Shown here in pieces: positions 2,881 to 10,311 of a DNA stretch of 25,999 nucleotides. Every line of letters starts with the position of its first letter. The first letter of the stretch is position 1. Position numbers and translations under genes: made by a program. The stretch comes from a virus. Location: positions 1 through 25,999 of the IMG/VR virus record IMGVR_UViG_3300020595_000172. The stretch is one strand, 5' to 3'. The notes beneath the pieces are model-generated. The model had not been told where the DNA came from. It did no database searches and worked only from the letters and a program-made list of their open reading frames with translations.

Positions 2881-3587
2881 TGGCAAAAATATTATGTGTA
2901 CGAATAGGTGAAAAGTACGGCCCAGACTACGAAACATATCTAGAGAAAAAACTACCAGAACATGAATTTATCTGGATACGACAACCGTATCACGATAGGG
3001 TTACTTTACAGTGGAATAAAATGTGGGGTATGCAACTCGACATTGATGAACCTATTTGTGTTATGGACATTGACATATTACTTACAAATGATTATAAGAA
3101 AGTGTTTGACTATCCTATAAAGAAAGGTGAGTTTCTTGCAATGCCTGGTTGGTGGAGAGATACTAATTCAGAGAACTACAAAATTAATGGTGGGTTCTTT
3201 AAATATTATCCAAAAGATTGTAGATACATCTATGATAAGTTTATGTCTGATATTCATAAATGGCAGAGACACTACATTGATAATGGAGTTACAAGTGGGC
3301 CTGTAAATGGAGAACAATACTTTGTTGAGGACAGTGTTAAAGAAAAATTAAAACTAAAACTTTTACCAGAAGCATGGTTTATTAGATGGGTTGCAAGTAC
3401 GAAACCATTACAAAATCATAAATCAGAAAAATTGTTTATGATAAAAATGACAGAGAAATATACAGAACTAACTGGAAATGAGTTTGCATATATGGGGGGA
3501 GAGTTTCACGAAGATATAAAATTTGTTCACTTTACACACTCTTCAAACAAACCACATGAATGGGCTGACTATGAAATTTTTAAATAA
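2880..3587 (+). CDS. Glycosyltransferase-like protein with DxD motif (GT-A fold)
   Basis: Probably transfers a sugar from a nucleotide donor to a glycan or other acceptor in the infected cell. The 235-aa protein opens with KILCVRIGEKYGPDY, typical of small phage GT8-like enzymes. It has a DxD metal/nucleotide site at D63-D65 in CVMDIDILLTNDY, an INGGFF turn near 101-106 where the family often has a substrate loop, GEQYF near 139, and a C-terminal FVHFTHSSNKPHEW resembling the family's late his-rich segment. It begins inside the stop of the preceding gene (TAATG), and its own end overlaps the next gene by 17 bases, so the three are probably translated together. Donor and acceptor cannot be read from sequence. 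Confidence 0.75.
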   Translation: MAKILCVRIGEKYGPDYETYLEKKLPEHEFIWIRQPYHDRVTLQWNKMWGMQLDIDEPICVMDIDILLTNDYKKVFDYPIKKGEFLAMPGWWRDTNSENYKINGGFFKYYPKDCRYIYDKFMSDIHKWQRHYIDNGVTSGPVNGEQYFVEDSVKEKLKLKLLPEAWFIRWVASTKPLQNHKSEKLFMIKMTEKYTELTGNEFAYMGGEFHEDIKFVHFTHSSNKPHEWADYEIFK

Positions 3588-5910
3588 TGGTATTAGAAAG
3601 TTTGTTAAGAAAGGAAACTATTATACTTATGGGTATGATGGTCAATCTGCTTCTGTCTTTATGAAAGACGGTAGATGGTCAGCAACTGTAGATCATTTTG
3701 CTACCACACAATTATTCTATTCAGACAATTTTATATCACCATCTTTTAAAGAGATAGTTGATGCAGAAAAAGAGTTAGGAACAAAACTAACTACGGATTG
3801 GATCACAACTGGACAATTAAAATATCTTAAACGACATACAGTAGGCCCAGGCACAATCTACAATCAAATCAAAAGAGTTGAAGAGGATTGGAAACCTTTT
3901 TTAAATCAAGATTTGATTGAGTATGATATGGAAGAGGAATATCAAAGATTTTGTTATCTGTTCGATTTACACAAAGATAAAGAAATAACAGTTGGACTAA
4001 GTGGTGGTAGAGATAGCGCTTGGTTAGTCATGTTTTTAAAACATAGAGGTTTCAATCCTAATTTAGTTCATGTCACAAGCCCTAATAACTATAACGGAAT
4101 AGATGATATATGCTGTGATAGGTATAGAAAAGAGGTGGGTTGGGAAATAGAAAACTTTGAGGTAGACTTTATACATGATGTTTACGAAGAAGAGGATAAG
4201 GTATTTACAGAGTTTTGGCCTGATTTAATTTATCCTCTAAAAAGTCATTCAGTATCAAAATATGGCGGTATAAAAATGTCTGGTGAGTCTAGTGAATCAG
4301 ACCATTCAAAAAAAACTCAATGGATGAGAGACATGGGTGTTATGGATGATGATATTTATATTACAAATTATATCAAAGATATGTATAATAATCGTGTATA
4401 TTATGGTAGGGGTATGGATAATTATGACCCACAAATATGGAAAGCACAAGATGAATCTATGGATTACATCTATGAATATTATAGAAACATATTAAAAGAA
4501 TTAAAAGACCATCCTTTAAAACATAATATCTTTTGGATACCATCTTATCAATCTTCAAGATTATATCAAGAGTCGCAAGACCCCAGAAACGAATGGTTTG
4601 CCCCATTTGCAGATCGTGAATTACAAAGAATTAATATTTTCAAAAAACAATCTAGACAAACTGGTAACACACAAAAAAAGTCTATGAAGAAAAAGAAAAT
4701 GTATAATATGGGTGAAAAATATTTTGGTAAAGAATGGAATAACCTTTCGTGGGATTATGATATTGTAGGAATGGGTATTCCATTTGATCTAGAACAGATG
4801 GAAAAAAGAAAAATATATACATCTAAAAAAGAGAAAGGATTGCGAGTAAGAAATAGTGGGATGAATCCACTAGGAGTATTCATTTTGAAAGATGCTAAAA
4901 CAGCACAGTATTTTGCAAATAATATTTGGATACAAAATGCTAAGTTCGATATCGTATCAGAAGATTATGAGTTTCCCAAAAATGAAAAACTTAGAGATAA
5001 GTTGTGGAAGGAAATTAGAGAAAATAAAACATTAATGATAATACCTCTTGGTATAACAGATACAGAAATATTCAAAAATGTAAAAAGTCCAAATGTAATG
5101 ACTGTATTTAATAATTTACTAAAGTCACAGATTAGATATGCTGACAAAGAACTGCCTACTCCTTTACCACTTGTTAATTCTATGAATATAATTAATCAAT
5201 CAATGAATGATACATTTCATCTAAATCTTACACCACAAAATTTAATGGTGTTAATAGAATTTGTTGGATTAAATCTTAAAGACCCAGATCATTTAAAAAA
5301 TACAACATTACCAGTTTATGATGACCTTCACAGTAGTTTTGATATGTGGGAATATGATAGAAAATCTAACACGGTTAAACCTTCTTGGAAAGGTATTTTA
5401 TCTTTAGGTGTAGACCCAGATATTATATATAAAGTAAAGGAAATAAATCATTTAGAAATACTTGAAGGTTGGAAACAACTCTGGCCTGATAGAAAAGATA
5501 TCCCAAGTGTAAGTACTTGGACTTTAATGGAAGAATGTTTTTTATATGATGATGTAGATGTTGTAAAAGACGCTATTGACCATGATATAAATATAAAGAC
5601 AACAGAATATGTCAACTACTATGGAGTGTATGATAATGAAAAATTAATTGGTGTGAATAGTGGACATAAAACCAGCCAAATCTCATGGCGCTCTAGGGGG
5701 CTGTGGGTTCACCCAAATTACAGAGGACGAAAAATTAGTAAGATGCTACTGAACGCTGTAGTAGATTCAGCACATACTCAATATGTATGGTCTGTTCCTA
5801 AAACAAAGTCAATGGCAGCTTATGAGAGTGTGGGGTTTATCAAAAGGAGTGACGAAATCGTGACAGACCAAGATAACAATTATATTGTGATTTTAACAAA
5901 AAACACTTGA
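3571..5910 (+). CDS. Asparagine synthetase-like PP-loop protein fused to GNAT acetyltransferase
   Basis: A 779-aa fusion. Residues 1-110 resemble the glutaminase half of asparagine synthetases (YDGQSASVF, then DHFATTQLFY matching the family's D-FGt-plyy turn), but there is no N-terminal Cys2 nucleophile, so glutamine hydrolysis is unlikely. The PP-loop ATPase signature SGGRDS is at 144-149, in VGLSGGRDSAWLV. A middle region (about 430-650) is unassigned. The last 120 residues form a GNAT domain: GLWVHPNYRGRKISKMLL carries the acetyl-CoA loop, and AYESVGF is motif B. A likely role is ATP-dependent amide or amidine formation plus N-acylation of an amino-sugar or similar group. I chose the ATG at 3571; the ATG at 3523 in the same frame would add 16 residues that look like read-through of the overlapping gene. 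The stop TGA lies inside the -35 of the next promoter. Confidence 0.8.
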   Translation: MKFLNNGIRKFVKKGNYYTYGYDGQSASVFMKDGRWSATVDHFATTQLFYSDNFISPSFKEIVDAEKELGTKLTTDWITTGQLKYLKRHTVGPGTIYNQIKRVEEDWKPFLNQDLIEYDMEEEYQRFCYLFDLHKDKEITVGLSGGRDSAWLVMFLKHRGFNPNLVHVTSPNNYNGIDDICCDRYRKEVGWEIENFEVDFIHDVYEEEDKVFTEFWPDLIYPLKSHSVSKYGGIKMSGESSESDHSKKTQWMRDMGVMDDDIYITNYIKDMYNNRVYYGRGMDNYDPQIWKAQDESMDYIYEYYRNILKELKDHPLKHNIFWIPSYQSSRLYQESQDPRNEWFAPFADRELQRINIFKKQSRQTGNTQKKSMKKKKMYNMGEKYFGKEWNNLSWDYDIVGMGIPFDLEQMEKRKIYTSKKEKGLRVRNSGMNPLGVFILKDAKTAQYFANNIWIQNAKFDIVSEDYEFPKNEKLRDKLWKEIRENKTLMIIPLGITDTEIFKNVKSPNVMTVFNNLLKSQIRYADKELPTPLPLVNSMNIINQSMNDTFHLNLTPQNLMVLIEFVGLNLKDPDHLKNTTLPVYDDLHSSFDMWEYDRKSNTVKPSWKGILSLGVDPDIIYKVKEINHLEILEGWKQLWPDRKDIPSVSTWTLMEECFLYDDVDVVKDAIDHDINIKTTEYVNYYGVYDNEKLIGVNSGHKTSQISWRSRGLWVHPNYRGRKISKMLLNAVVDSAHTQYVWSVPKTKSMAAYESVGFIKRSDEIVTDQDNNYIVILTKNT

Positions 5911-5935
5911 CATAAATGTAAAAATATGTTAAAGT
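5907..5935 (+). promoter_or_regulatory. Sigma70-like promoter before the transporter genes
   Basis: An exact TTGACA (5907-5912), a 17-bp spacer, and TAAAGT (5930-5935, four of six consensus bases) preceded by TG at the extended -10 position. The start site would be near 5942, about 26 bases before the signal-peptide gene. It overlaps the stop codon of the gene upstream. This is a host-polymerase type promoter, unlike the late promoters to the right, so it suggests expression of the transporter genes before late transcription. Confidence 0.6.
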
Positions 5936-5967
5936 GTATATTCATTTTAACCAACGGAGAAAGAAAA

Positions 5968-6351
5968 ATGAAAAAAGTACTAACAGCAGTTGCCCTTATG
6001 GCAATGACAACTACAGCAAATGCGACAGATATCGGTATGGGTATTGATCGTGAAACCAAATATAAGAACGGTGAGGGAACTACTGTAACCTATAACTATG
6101 CATTTGTACAACACAAGTGGAAAGACCTTGGTGGAATTACCACTAAAGCGACACACTCGCAAAATACAGAGACTAATACAACTAATTATAATGAATTGAA
6201 AATTTCAAAGGATTTTAAATTCAATGTTGCTGGTGACAGTAAAAATGCATTTAAAATCGTACCGTCTTTTCAAAGACGTTGGGATGGACAAGATGGTATT
6301 GGTGAAAAATCAAAAGACAACTTTAAAGTTGAATTTAAATATACATTCTAA
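5968..6351 (+). CDS. Small exported beta-rich protein, possible outer-membrane barrel
   Basis: A 127-aa protein with a clear signal peptide: MKK, a hydrophobic core, and an AxA site (ANA) predicting cleavage after residue 19. The mature 108 residues are rich in Thr, Lys, Asn and aromatic residues in alternating patterns, and the protein ends FKVEFKYTF. A terminal aromatic residue on an alternating strand is the usual signal for outer-membrane beta-barrel insertion. I know no named family. The start at 5968 is preferred over the in-frame ATG at 5926 because it begins the signal peptide and has GGAGA at 5956-5960, while 5926 lies inside the promoter. It is the first gene of a run with the TctC- and TctA-like genes, so it may help a substrate cross the outer membrane; that role is inference. 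Confidence 0.75.
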   Translation: MKKVLTAVALMAMTTTANATDIGMGIDRETKYKNGEGTTVTYNYAFVQHKWKDLGGITTKATHSQNTETNTTNYNELKISKDFKFNVAGDSKNAFKIVPSFQRRWDGQDGIGEKSKDNFKVEFKYTF

Positions 6352-6369
6352 GTGAGAAGGAAATAAAAG

Positions 6370-7434
6370 ATGAAAAAATTGATATTTGCAATTATATTCT
6401 CTGCTATGTCGTTTACGGCATATGCAGAGACTTTTACATATATTGTTCCAGCAGGGCCAGAGGGTGGTAATGCTAAATGGGCTCAAAGAGTCGTTAAGGA
6501 GTGGAACAAATATCTTGAAATGGATGGACACAAAGTAGTTCTTAGGTACATGCCTGGCGATCCAAAGAAAACATACGCTAAGTATAATAACGAACTTTCT
6601 AAGGATGGCAAGACTATGATCCAAAGTCGTGGTATGATTAAGTATATCACTTCTGGTGATGGTTGGGGTGGATTTGACCCTAAAGCATTTGCAACAATTG
6701 TTGCACATAATCAAGGAACTTTTGTTTTCTCAAAGAAAGATATTCCAGCAATTCCAGCCATTCATATTGGTGGTGGTTCAGAAACCATAGTTGATGCAAT
6801 GTCAATTGTTATGATGTTATGTGGGCCGATGGATTTTGATAAGTTGGTTGAATGTTCTAAAACTAATGTGAGACAAATCAAAGGTTGGAAAGGGTCTGGT
6901 GACAGACGAAAAGCCTTCCTTAATGGTGAGATTGATGTTTCAAGAGATGGGTTCTCTCATATGAAGAAAACCTATAAAGATGGTATCAAATCTGGAAAAA
7001 CTAAAGTCTGGTTTTCTCATGGGGTTTCTGTCGATGGAAAGATTGTAAAAGATCCAAACATGCCAGAAGCATGGTTCAACACTGCATACGAAAAGAAGTG
7101 GGGTGAAGCACCATCTGGTCGTTATTATGATGCATATGCACTTATTCTAAAAACAAGAAGTGGTTTAGGTAAAACTATATTTCTTTCAAAAGATAGTCCT
7201 CATATGGATGCTCTAGTTAGTTCGTTTACTATGATGTTAAATAACAAAACTAGTAAGAAACATCTAGATAAGAAGTTGGGTAAATACCCATGGGCGCTTG
7301 GTGAAGATGCAAATGATTCTAAACTTGCAATCTTTGATGCAATTAACAGTAAAGAATTGCTTAACGATGTAAAAACTTCAAGAGAAGTTTTTGGTGAAAA
7401 GGTGAATATCAAGTGGAGTCAATTCTTCAATTAG
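6370..7434 (+). CDS. tctC: TctC-like periplasmic solute-binding protein
   Basis: Predicted periplasmic binding component of a tripartite tricarboxylate transporter; this family captures carboxylates and related small acids and delivers them to TctA. The 354-aa protein has a 19-residue signal peptide ending AYA. The mature N-terminus reads FTYIVPAGPEGGNAKWAQR, matching the family pattern I-VP-apGG---D--AR, followed by a two-lobed length. The match to classical TctC/Bug proteins is distant after the first 60 residues, and the family assignment rests partly on the adjacent TctA-like gene. AAGGA lies 8 bases before the ATG. The end overlaps the next gene by 22 bases. The ligand cannot be inferred: the Asp normally seen after the GG motif is replaced by Asn/Lys context, so the specificity may be unusual. 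Confidence 0.7.
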   Translation: MKKLIFAIIFSAMSFTAYAETFTYIVPAGPEGGNAKWAQRVVKEWNKYLEMDGHKVVLRYMPGDPKKTYAKYNNELSKDGKTMIQSRGMIKYITSGDGWGGFDPKAFATIVAHNQGTFVFSKKDIPAIPAIHIGGGSETIVDAMSIVMMLCGPMDFDKLVECSKTNVRQIKGWKGSGDRRKAFLNGEIDVSRDGFSHMKKTYKDGIKSGKTKVWFSHGVSVDGKIVKDPNMPEAWFNTAYEKKWGEAPSGRYYDAYALILKTRSGLGKTIFLSKDSPHMDALVSSFTMMLNNKTSKKHLDKKLGKYPWALGEDANDSKLAIFDAINSKELLNDVKTSREVFGEKVNIKWSQFFN

Positions 7435-8912
7435 AAGAAGTCTATCAATGGGCCATCATAATCGCATTAGGTTGTGTTTATGGTGGTCTCATTGGTCTTG
7501 TACCTTCTGCTGGTGCTGGTAAAGCAATTCTACTACTCTTTGGAGTAGTAAGTTTTTTTGATGGGGCAGAGTATCTCTTTGTCCTTTTTTCTATGGTGAC
7601 AGTTGTTGCATGTTCCATAGGTGATTCATATGCAAGTGTTCTATTAGGTGTGCCTGGGGCAAACGGAACAGCTGCAACAATGGTGGATGGATATCCACTT
7701 GCAAAGAAAGGTAGAGCATCTTATGCTTTATCTTCTGCACTTTTCACATCAACCATGAATGGTTTAATCTTTGGATTTCTAGGGTTCTCATTCTTTCCAC
7801 TATACATGCAAATAAATGACGCTGTAAGAACACCAGAGTTAACTGGCATTTTATTCTTGTCATTTTGTCTAGTTGCTGTAATAACAAGTAAGCACACAAT
7901 AAGAAGTATAATTGCTGTATTGTTTGGTTGTTGGTTATCTCAAATAGGTTTGAATGAATGGTCAAATGAAACATATAATCTTGGTTGGACTTATCTAAAC
8001 GATGGGATTAAACTTGTTCTTGTAGGTGTAGGATTATTTGTTATACCAGAGATGATTGAAACACTAATTGCAAAACACGAATTTAAAAAGATAGAAATTA
8101 AAGAACACAACAAACAAACTTGGGAAGGTATTGTTGATGTTTGGAAATATAAGTGGACAGCGATGATTGGTGGATGGGTTGGTTTTATTGGTGGTATCAT
8201 GCCTGGCGGTGGTGGTGGAACTGGCGATTGGATGTCATACTCTATTACACGATCAATTCATAAAACAGAAAAATTTGGTAACGGAAATATCAAAGGTGTA
8301 ATCGGTTCAGAAGGAGCAAACAACGCTGGAAAGATTGGTGCATTACTTCCCACATTATTTTTTGGTATTCCAGGCAATAAAATGTATGCATATTTAGCTG
8401 CGCTTTGGGTATACTTAGGCTTTGATGTAGGCACTACAGACTTACTAGAGGATCAACAATTTTTTGAGACTATCTTCTGGGGATATATTCTGGGAACTAT
8501 AATCTCTGGAATTGTGTTGATATGGGGTGCAAGGTATCTTTCAAAGGTTTTATATATAAACCCATATTGGTGGATATTACCTCTGACACTACTGACCATC
8601 TACACAGCATTGTCGTACAGTGGGTGGATTACTTGGGAAGAGGATTTACTCATGATGTTTATTCTGTCCATAATTGGATGGGGTATGAGAACATATAAGT
8701 TTAGTAGACCAGCATTTATTCTGTCTTTCATTATATACGATCAGTTTTTATCTGGCGTAGAAAAACTACAAGGTATGTATTTTTATAATAATAAATATCT
8801 TAGTAACGATATTTGGTTTAATCATCCGACACTTACTATCTGTATTATTGTAGGAGTAGGTATTGTGTTATTTGGTTTACTAAATAAAAATGCAAGGATT
8901 GATTATGCATAA
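7413..8912 (+). CDS. tctA: TctA-like membrane permease of a tripartite carboxylate transporter
   Basis: Large integral-membrane subunit that moves the substrate across the inner membrane, driven by an ion gradient in known members. The 499-aa length is normal for the family and there are about ten hydrophobic segments. Signatures: GLIGLVPSAGAG near the N-terminus, then ASVLLGVPGANGTAATMVDG and YPLAKKGRASYAL (family: LL-tPGt-aa-at--DGyPmakkGrA), and in the second half GFIGGIMPGGGGGTGDW, GSEGANNAGKIGALLPTLFF and GIPGNKMYA (family: apEaaNNA-----liP-l-lGiPG). The start is GTG at 7413, inside the binding-protein gene, with AAGG about 12 bases upstream. No gene for the small four-helix TctB subunit lies beside it. 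Confidence 0.85.
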   Translation: MESILQLEEVYQWAIIIALGCVYGGLIGLVPSAGAGKAILLLFGVVSFFDGAEYLFVLFSMVTVVACSIGDSYASVLLGVPGANGTAATMVDGYPLAKKGRASYALSSALFTSTMNGLIFGFLGFSFFPLYMQINDAVRTPELTGILFLSFCLVAVITSKHTIRSIIAVLFGCWLSQIGLNEWSNETYNLGWTYLNDGIKLVLVGVGLFVIPEMIETLIAKHEFKKIEIKEHNKQTWEGIVDVWKYKWTAMIGGWVGFIGGIMPGGGGGTGDWMSYSITRSIHKTEKFGNGNIKGVIGSEGANNAGKIGALLPTLFFGIPGNKMYAYLAALWVYLGFDVGTTDLLEDQQFFETIFWGYILGTIISGIVLIWGARYLSKVLYINPYWWILPLTLLTIYTALSYSGWITWEEDLLMMFILSIIGWGMRTYKFSRPAFILSFIIYDQFLSGVEKLQGMYFYNNKYLSNDIWFNHPTLTICIIVGVGIVLFGLLNKNARIDYA

Positions 8913-9552
8913 ATTAGATTCTTTTGACAAAGTTCTGGTAAGTCTTTCTGGTGGAATAGATTCAGCAGCTCTACTTTATATGGTAGCAAAACAATATACA
9001 ATAACACATCGTACAACCGAAGTATATGCAATAACTGGATACGGTAAACCAGATACACTCGAGGCTGCTAAATTTGTCTGGGGATATGTTAAAAATAAAT
9101 TTGGAAATATAAATTGGAAAACACATTTTGATTATGATAACTACTATGATAAATCTTACTATTCACATAGGGGGAAAGCAGACCACGAACATAGAAGTAT
9201 CTTTATGGAAGAACATAACATCAAAGATGTATTGCATGGAAGAGTAAAGACAACTTTAACAGAAGAACAATTGAAACAGTGTGAAACTCAATATCCACAA
9301 GCAGTATCAAAACTTTTGTTAAATAGTCATGTTATAGAAACTAAGAAAACTTACATGCCACAGAACAGATGGGAATATACTATACATAGACCCATATCTA
9401 ATTATACAAAATCTATGGTAGTAGATTATATAAAAGAACACAACGCTAACGAACTACTAACAGAAACTATAAGTTGTTACAAACAGAAAAAAGAACCATG
9501 TAAACAATGTCCATCATGTCTTGAAAAGATGGATTTATTAGGACATTACTAA
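8905..9552 (+). CDS. queC: QueC-like PP-loop ATPase (7-cyano-7-deazaguanine synthase-like)
   Basis: QueC converts 7-carboxy-7-deazaguanine to preQ0 using ATP and ammonia, for tRNA queuosine or for 7-deazaguanine in phage DNA. The 215-aa protein has the PP-loop SGGIDS at 15-20 and a C-terminal four-cysteine zinc site, C191, C199, C202 and C205, with the spacing and position seen in QueC (SCYKQKKEPCKQCPSCLEK). Length fits. Central substrate motifs are less clear, so it could be a related enzyme on another substrate. I chose ATG 8905 because AAGGA lies 6 bases before it; ATG 8890 would add five residues without a site. It overlaps the permease end by 8 bases and its stop overlaps the next start (TAATG). 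No FolE, QueD or QueE homologue is visible in the window. Confidence 0.7.
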   Translation: MHKLDSFDKVLVSLSGGIDSAALLYMVAKQYTITHRTTEVYAITGYGKPDTLEAAKFVWGYVKNKFGNINWKTHFDYDNYYDKSYYSHRGKADHEHRSIFMEEHNIKDVLHGRVKTTLTEEQLKQCETQYPQAVSKLLLNSHVIETKKTYMPQNRWEYTIHRPISNYTKSMVVDYIKEHNANELLTETISCYKQKKEPCKQCPSCLEKMDLLGHY

Positions 9553-10303: not shown

Positions 10304-10311
10304 TATAAATA
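10304..10311 (+). promoter_or_regulatory. T4-type late promoter (TATAAATA) heading the structural module
   Basis: An exact copy of the T4 late -10 element in the 37-base gap between the oxygenase-like gene and the 119-aa gene. Transcription would begin near 10317, leaving a leader of about 19 bases that carries AGGAG at 10325-10329. It marks the switch from accessory to structural genes. Confidence 0.75.

Follow-up and report, generated by a model that had tools for sequence, protein, structure and literature searches.

A predicted two-component TctC/TctA-type carboxylate importer on a T4-like phage contig, recurring among viral contigs

The tripartite tricarboxylate transporter (TTT) systems (TctA/TctB/TctC; TC 2.A.80) are known with variations: the accessible portion of one overview reports rare TctAB fusions and archaeal TctA homologues without TctB or TctC (PMC5812351). 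As far as the accessible text of the viral literature goes, one SUP05 viral contig has been listed with a tctA domain whose role is unknown (PMC4164917; repeated in the review PMC6359870), and tricarboxylate transport is mentioned in passing for a myovirus norB/nirK island (PMC8115048). The same sources describe viral pstS as a nutrient-uptake gene (PMC6359870) and viral amtB with glnK, beside a porin (PMC8115048). Here, we analyze positions 1 to 25,999 of the IMG/VR virus record IMGVR_UViG_3300020595_000172 (25,999 nucleotides; the window), in which a cassette at 5907-8912 encodes a binding protein and a TctA permease. Based on sequence and structure-model comparisons, we suggest that these proteins probably form a phage-supplied, two-component TTT importer for a carboxylate, which either dispenses with TctB or borrows it.

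The open reading frames (ORFs) of the cassette lie where a first-pass annotation had put them, with two signal-peptide proteins and the permease in tight succession:

5907-5935, + strand: sigma-70-type promoter with extended -10 element (TTGACA, 17 bp, TGn TAAAGT); 10 of 12 consensus matches, TG present
5968-6351, + strand: small signal-peptide protein, 127 residues, possible outer-membrane barrel (model, weak fold matches, homologue in locus L027)
6370-7434, + strand: TctC/Bug-type periplasmic solute-binding protein (SBP), 354 residues, signal peptide assigned by eye (fold and profile comparison)
7413-8912, + strand: TctA permease, 499 residues, GTG start (PF01970)

The stop of the SBP gene (7434) and the start of the TctA gene (7413) overlap. 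In a Pfam hidden Markov model (HMM) search, the 7413-8912 product matched PF01970 (TctA) far above the cut-off (E 1.1e-79; 268.6 bits, cut-off 28.9) and covered positions 3-423 of the 423-position profile, identifying it as a full-length TctA, in line with the permease call of the first-pass annotation. A PDB sequence search returned no TctA relative, and PHROGs yielded no family for 34 TctA rows. Purifying selection, in comparison with locus L006, is strong on TctA (ratio of nonsynonymous to synonymous substitution rates [dN/dS] 0.070) and moderate on the SBP (0.207) and the small protein (0.165), with two neck genes giving 0.090 and 0.105 as a comparison. Relative to L003, L004 and L016, the dN/dS of TctA was 0.036, 0.083 and 0.21, respectively.

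No family of Pfam, NCBIfam or PHROGs was matched above its cut-off by the 6370-7434 product. PF03401 (TctC) was not matched at E up to 1, the sole Pfam rows, Lpp-LpqN (0.046) and SLT_4 (0.18), were both below cut-off, and a PDB sequence search produced chance-level rows only. A structure model built from a 38-row alignment (mean predicted local distance difference test score [pLDDT] 91.1, predicted template modelling score [pTM] 0.88) was compared with the PDB. With Foldseek, the first 17 chains were TctC/Bug-type binding proteins; in a VIA fold comparison, the first 11 entries were of this type (Z 17.7-19.6, next entry Z 12.3; root-mean-square deviation 3.4-4.0 across 264-274 residues). Their titles include Bug27, BugD, Polaromonas TctC, TphC, MatC and terephthalate- and oxoadipate-binding proteins, and we take all 11 to be TTT binding proteins. 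Profile comparison with hhalign pointed the same way: the 38-row alignment matched a TctC template with Prob 98.3 and E 1.7e-14 over 284 columns, and ten viral SBP rows matched with Prob 94.6 and E 6.7e-8. The template consisted of 18 rows, 16 SAR11 ORFs called TctC by gene position and two further rows chosen with the same SBP model, a bias towards a match. Among the 38 family rows, of which one (L118) is bacterial, two reached PF03401 (E up to 0.1; best E 1.3e-8) in a scan that leaves the two matching rows unidentified. We therefore consider the TctC label of the first-pass annotation right in kind on the strength of the modelled fold and the profile comparison, and not by PF03401, as the protein falls below the sequence model of the family.

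Two short patterns derived from nine viral TctA sequences matched 446 IMG/VR stretches, 340 of which encode relatives. Viral counts refer to the best 80 of these 340 TctA loci, all with at least 39% identity; the other 260 could include ordinary TctA. The 80 loci are redundant: clustering at 90% identity grouped 72 distinct full-length TctA into 30 clusters, in a pool that also contained three rows from genome contigs. An SBP is present in 76 of the 80, at most 100 bp from TctA in 62 of these, and the four loci lacking one lie at a contig end or have a flank of only 640 bp. Among the paired loci, the SBP comes first in 27 and TctA in 49, and the gene settings around the pair differ between loci; a methyltransferase-like gene of about 225 residues (e.g. 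L067:5194-5874) lies near TctA or the SBP in 48 of the 80. The proposal of a phage-borne transporter is supported, and carboxylate uptake is still its likeliest role, but the idea was understated: in place of one phage's lone gain there is a pair that recurs across viral contigs. Cultured phages gave no SBP match in 50,697 records, and seven records, from Escherichia, Salmonella or human faecal samples, had distant TctA matches (at most 31% identity).

In agreement with the first-pass annotation, a PF07331 HMM search at E up to 1 found no TctB in 49 viral records, the window included; in a control, 12 of 14 genomes matched, three of them over cut-off. Nor does the viral permease carry TctB as a tail, full-length viral TctA measuring 473-522 residues as compared to 649-683 in fused relatives. 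At L076:8476-8694, a 73-residue, two-helix membrane protein (DUF6552, PF20189, E 5.4e-10) follows the binding protein, and similar short ORFs with two transmembrane helices lie near the pair in several loci, with none in the window. Such DUF6552-type proteins could be stand-ins for TctB.

The suggested tree of TctA with phage and SAR11-type sequences placed all 24 rows labelled phage in one clade (support 100/100; stem 1.83 changes per column), the sister of which is made up of bacterial TctA-TctB fusions from some SAR11 and other Pseudomonadota (L172-L189, L191). In the SBP tree, 25 viral-group rows lie on one side of a 100/100 branch and the bacterial rows on the other; as this tree has no outside group, it shows a split between the two sets without rooting either as a clade. 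The single bacterial-looking exception in the viral TctA clade, L116:3168-5675, sits on a contig of an Omnitrophota metagenome-assembled genome (MAG), among genes of bacterial appearance (DnaJ, four methyltransferases, B12 radical SAM). Its TctA is 39% identical to that of the window, the bacterial sister rows being about 30% identical, and no second such case was found in 285 genomes of its phylum. Another member, L117, comes from a Pelagibacter MAG, on a 7.9-kb contig with phage-like neighbours; both loci had been assigned to the viral group before their genomic context was read.

The sister operon comprises an SBP and a TctA of 649-683 residues, adjacent in most cases, mostly with PrpF nearby. 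The C-terminal extension of this TctA (164-185 residues, 3-5 hydrophobic stretches) matched TctB-like rows in hhalign (Prob 94.9, E 4.6e-8), these rows having been selected on size, number of helices and position instead of a Pfam match; the Pfam TctB model gave 0.0036, below cut-off, in one of four scanned. L205, branching outside, is likewise long (679 residues). Because the nearest sampled bacterial relatives and the outside L205 are long or fused, loss of TctB in the viral line appears to be the simpler history, with moderate support (branch 90/81). Of 200 bootstrap trees, only 14% set the fused rows apart from all others by a single branch, and the TctA tree carries long-branch warnings (L215 with the window's side; L218 with L220). 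The label "fused" was given by length or, for nine rows truncated by a locus end, after fetching a longer region; L226 received its label through kinship alone, and L207 (648 residues) was counted as canonical. Neither trees nor identities showed a recent gain from SAR11 or other bacteria, the sister SAR11 members being about 30% identical. Relatives of TctA were sought in the order (297 genomes) and phylum (398) of the Pelagibacter MAG and in the phylum of the Omnitrophota MAG (285), relatives of the SBP in 398 and 197 bacterial genomes. In the order and phylum scans, only one MAG (G054) reached a score comparable to those of the viral clade (1.3e-215; next best 1.2e-129), and two narrow patterns run on genome contigs yielded 51 stretches with three relatives.

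The promoter consists of TTGACA at 5907-5912, a 17-bp spacer with TG, and TAAAGT at 5930-5935. Promoter-like sites in the window number 103, compared to 94.6 (standard deviation 10.8) in shuffled sequences, and are thus not above chance, so that the 5907 site alone proves nothing. In an alignment of the window with five related contigs, however, TTGACA is invariant and the second box reads TAAAGT or TATAGT, whereas the spacer diverges (L002 and L006 being identical across the promoter), so that the host-like promoter of the first-pass annotation is upheld by conservation of both boxes. T4-late-type TATAAATA boxes occur nine times on both strands of the window (3.73 expected; one of 100 shuffles as high). 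On the + strand between genes there are six (shuffle mean 0.35), a count reached in none of 1000 shuffles. The features beyond the cassette are:

8890-9552, + strand: QueC-like PP-loop protein (PF06508, E 2.3e-11; phrog_1550, E 1.6e-14)
10304-10311, + strand: T4-late-type TATAAATA box opening the structural module after the cassette (box counts against shuffles; conserved in all four relatives examined)
10304, 17025, 17056, 22543, 23228 and 25982, + strand: intergenic TATAAATA boxes, most directly before structural genes

Because the cassette has a conserved host-type promoter, whereas structural genes tend to follow TATAAATA boxes, the sequence suggests that host RNA polymerase would transcribe the cassette before the virion and late genes. 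The start of the QueC-like gene overlaps the TctA stop, and the gene is perhaps part of the same transcript; its position is taken by other genes in L002, L006 and L009. Further upstream, the window encodes a NodU-type carbamoyltransferase at 50-1264 (PF16861, E 7.3e-48; PF02543, E 2.3e-34; phrog_1601) and a 795-residue ORF at 3523-5910 with an acetyltransferase domain at its C-terminus.

The small protein most likely starts at 5968 and not at 5926, since a GGAG lies just upstream of the former (by eye) and a start at the latter would overlap the -10 box. The 5968-6351 product found no Pfam, PHROG or NCBIfam match; its sequence ends in KVEFKYTF, with a C-terminal F. Its model, built from five rows, is a seven-stranded beta-meander (pLDDT 77) for which Foldseek returned no match under 1e-3. 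VIA matches were weak (Z at most 6.9), with outer-membrane barrels prominent among mixed, unrelated folds, so an outer-membrane barrel is possible for this modelled protein. A scan of viral sequences for the small protein yielded seven loci, six in or near the window's group plus L125, on the contig of L027. In L027 the homologue sits after TctA; in L124 the small protein is present and the SBP-TctA pair does not follow it.

Envelope parts beside viral TctA are recurrent, not universal. At L033:2693-7569, a porin of Gram-negative type (PF13609, E 2.2e-22) stands in a row with two TctC-type binding proteins, unlike each other, and then TctA, uniting outer-membrane, periplasmic and inner-membrane parts on one viral contig. 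In L007, a Phage_OMP-type protein (PF24653, E 1.8e-6) lies at a greater distance upstream. On an 80-kb viral contig, a family-3 ATP-binding cassette (ABC)-type binding protein lies two genes before TctA (L059:4357-5403; PF00497, E 1.4e-13), so viruses carry other binding proteins too. By eye, the genes after TctA at L008:7617-8914 and L010:8874-10363 resemble csgF and csgG, curli-pore genes that pelagimyophages are known to carry.

As the first-pass annotation had recognized, a T4-like structural module adjoins the cassette: terminase, neck, sheath stabilizer, sheath and major head genes lie on the same contig (gp23, E 3.6e-147), with the cassette directly before the neck genes. Terminase identity is 71% to Melnitz, 69% to HTVC008M and up to 68% to cyanophages, and gp23 identity is 74% to Mosig and 73% to Melnitz. 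Among cultured phages, Melnitz (host OM43) and HTVC008M and Mosig (host SAR11) are therefore its closest relatives, cyanophages being only slightly more distant, and the host is likely a marine bacterium; the label "marine" for IMG/VR contigs is carried over from these cultured relatives. A tRNA scan of two related contigs, with two weak or single genes, gave no clue to the host. At the cassette's spot, HTVC008M has 2OG-Fe(II) oxygenase and ferrochelatase genes, and Melnitz has tail-fibre genes.

In the mechanism that we propose, the SBP would capture a carboxylate in the periplasm and dock on TctA; without its own TctB, TctA would then carry the compound into the infected cell by ion-gradient symport. 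The small barrel-like protein may ease passage across the outer membrane, and host RNA polymerase would read the cassette from the host-type promoter ahead of the late genes. PrpF belongs to an isomerase family for aconitate-type acids. Because PrpF lies mostly near the sister bacterial operon, our best guess for the substrate, made with low confidence, is an unsaturated or oxo tricarboxylate. Of 20 fetched regions of about 8-10 kb, 17 contained a PrpF-type ORF; 19 of the 20 are bacterial, and the remaining one, the phage-like contig of the Pelagibacter MAG, has none. The 80 viral loci, in stretches of at most 13.6 kb, all lack such an ORF.

Several observations weigh against parts of this picture. 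The substrate guess relies on the neighbours of a distant sister group, and 16 of the regions searched for PrpF had themselves supplied the model, PF04303 having been run on two. A role for the barrel has to contend with the presence of the small protein in six of the 80 TctA loci. As for TctB, it is a short, divergent family, and any of the 49 viral records may be incomplete. In L009 (148-kb contig; 6001-7499), TctA is broken into two overlapping frames, through either decay or sequencing error. Finally, all four relatives examined also retain the TATAAATA box at 5586, which lies within the ORF before the cassette, making late transcription of the cassette possible.

There are also rival explanations. 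The phage subunits might not be self-sufficient and might form a hybrid transporter with host TctB, or host binding proteins might feed the phage TctA. In favour of this, 16 SAR11 loci (L140-L155) have canonical sets in which an ORF of about 307 residues, an ORF with 4-5 transmembrane helices and TctA are neighbours, a PF07331 match occurs elsewhere in the genome of the Pelagibacter MAG, and TTT systems are described with two membrane proteins, TctA and TctB, in the accessible part of the overview (PMC5812351). However, the nearest relatives have a TctB-like tail fused to TctA, so that the subfamily inherits no free TctB partner, and the same source reports the archaeal homologues that lack TctB or TctC; we regard such dependence on the host as unlikely. 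Alternatively, the envelope proteins could act in superinfection exclusion or in changing the cell surface and not in nutrition, a thought encouraged by the oxygenase and tail-fibre genes at the pre-neck spot in HTVC008M and Melnitz and by the carbamoyltransferase and unassigned proteins upstream of the cassette. Purifying selection on the whole permease, SBP-TctA pairing in varied gene settings and the TctC/Bug fold fit transport better, and we hold a non-nutritional role to be quite improbable.

The cassette might, moreover, be bacterial DNA misjoined to a phage contig, or the contigs could be bacterial and miscalled as viral. One clade member lies on the Omnitrophota MAG contig among bacterial-looking genes, and 36 of 49 viral records, many of them short, have neither a gp23 match nor a terminase match under 1e-40; at least one of the two occurs in the other 13. 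A terminase alone is weak evidence for viral origin, since terminase phrog_2 matches 11 of the 14 control genomes; gp23 matches none of them. Yet the genes flanking the cassette are the same in L003 and L004, in L002, L006 and L009 the cassette is followed by the same structural genes, and gp23 is also found on the contigs of L003, L004, L006 and L009; these syntenic relatives stem from differently numbered data sets, which may not be independent. Low TctA identity, about 30% to the bacterial sister rows and 39% to the Omnitrophota row, likewise speaks against bacterial DNA. For the window, we reject misassembly or contamination on the grounds of repeated synteny and the structural genes linked on the contig. 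The synteny search thus makes a misjoin, which the first-pass annotation had named as a possible refutation, very unlikely for the cassette, and we give this rival next to no weight.

Beyond the phage-supplied importer itself, we tentatively entertain a wider interpretation, about which we are rather less than confident: phages, apparently marine ones, may possess their own TTT branch, long separated from sampled bacteria, which became a two-part importer after loss of TctB and is completed by an outer-membrane barrel or porin in some lineages including this one; here, a host-type promoter would switch it on to import a tricarboxylate-like compound into the infected cell. If the importer reading is right, infected bacteria import organic acids via virus-made machinery. 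With 340 viral stretches encoding TctA relatives, the best 80 of which were inspected, the trait may be common, and a viral clade this deep goes beyond a host gene borrowed recently. As the selected lineage seems to do without TctB, the pair would also make the need for TctB in TTT transporters testable.

Our literature searches, mostly open-access and without supplements, returned no account of a viral SBP-TctA pair. A passage on pelagimyophages implies unnamed substrate-transport genes in marine ones, with no tricarboxylate or TctA term in the accessible main text (PMC7029224), and the Melnitz paper, in its accessible part, treats curli genes and not this cassette (PMC9004378). The earlier mentions in PMC4164917 and PMC8115048, as far as accessible, share with our locus a tctA domain or genes for tricarboxylate transport on marine viral contigs, but come without the SBP pair, clade, TctB loss or promoter. 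Like TTT systems, the viral pair combines a PF01970 permease and a TctC/Bug-type SBP encoded by neighbouring genes; unlike them, it is phage-borne, has no TctB gene or domain that we could find in the records searched, has an SBP below every Pfam cut-off and varies in gene order between viral loci. The bacterial operon of the sister group resembles it in that SBP and TctA are adjacent in most cases, and differs in its TctA of 649-683 residues with a TctB-like tail and about 30% identity to the phage TctA. In the pstS and amtB/porin cases, as far as their sources are accessible, the virus likewise supplies envelope parts for uptake, and in the latter an inner-membrane transporter is paired with a porin (PMC8115048), but the transporter families are others.

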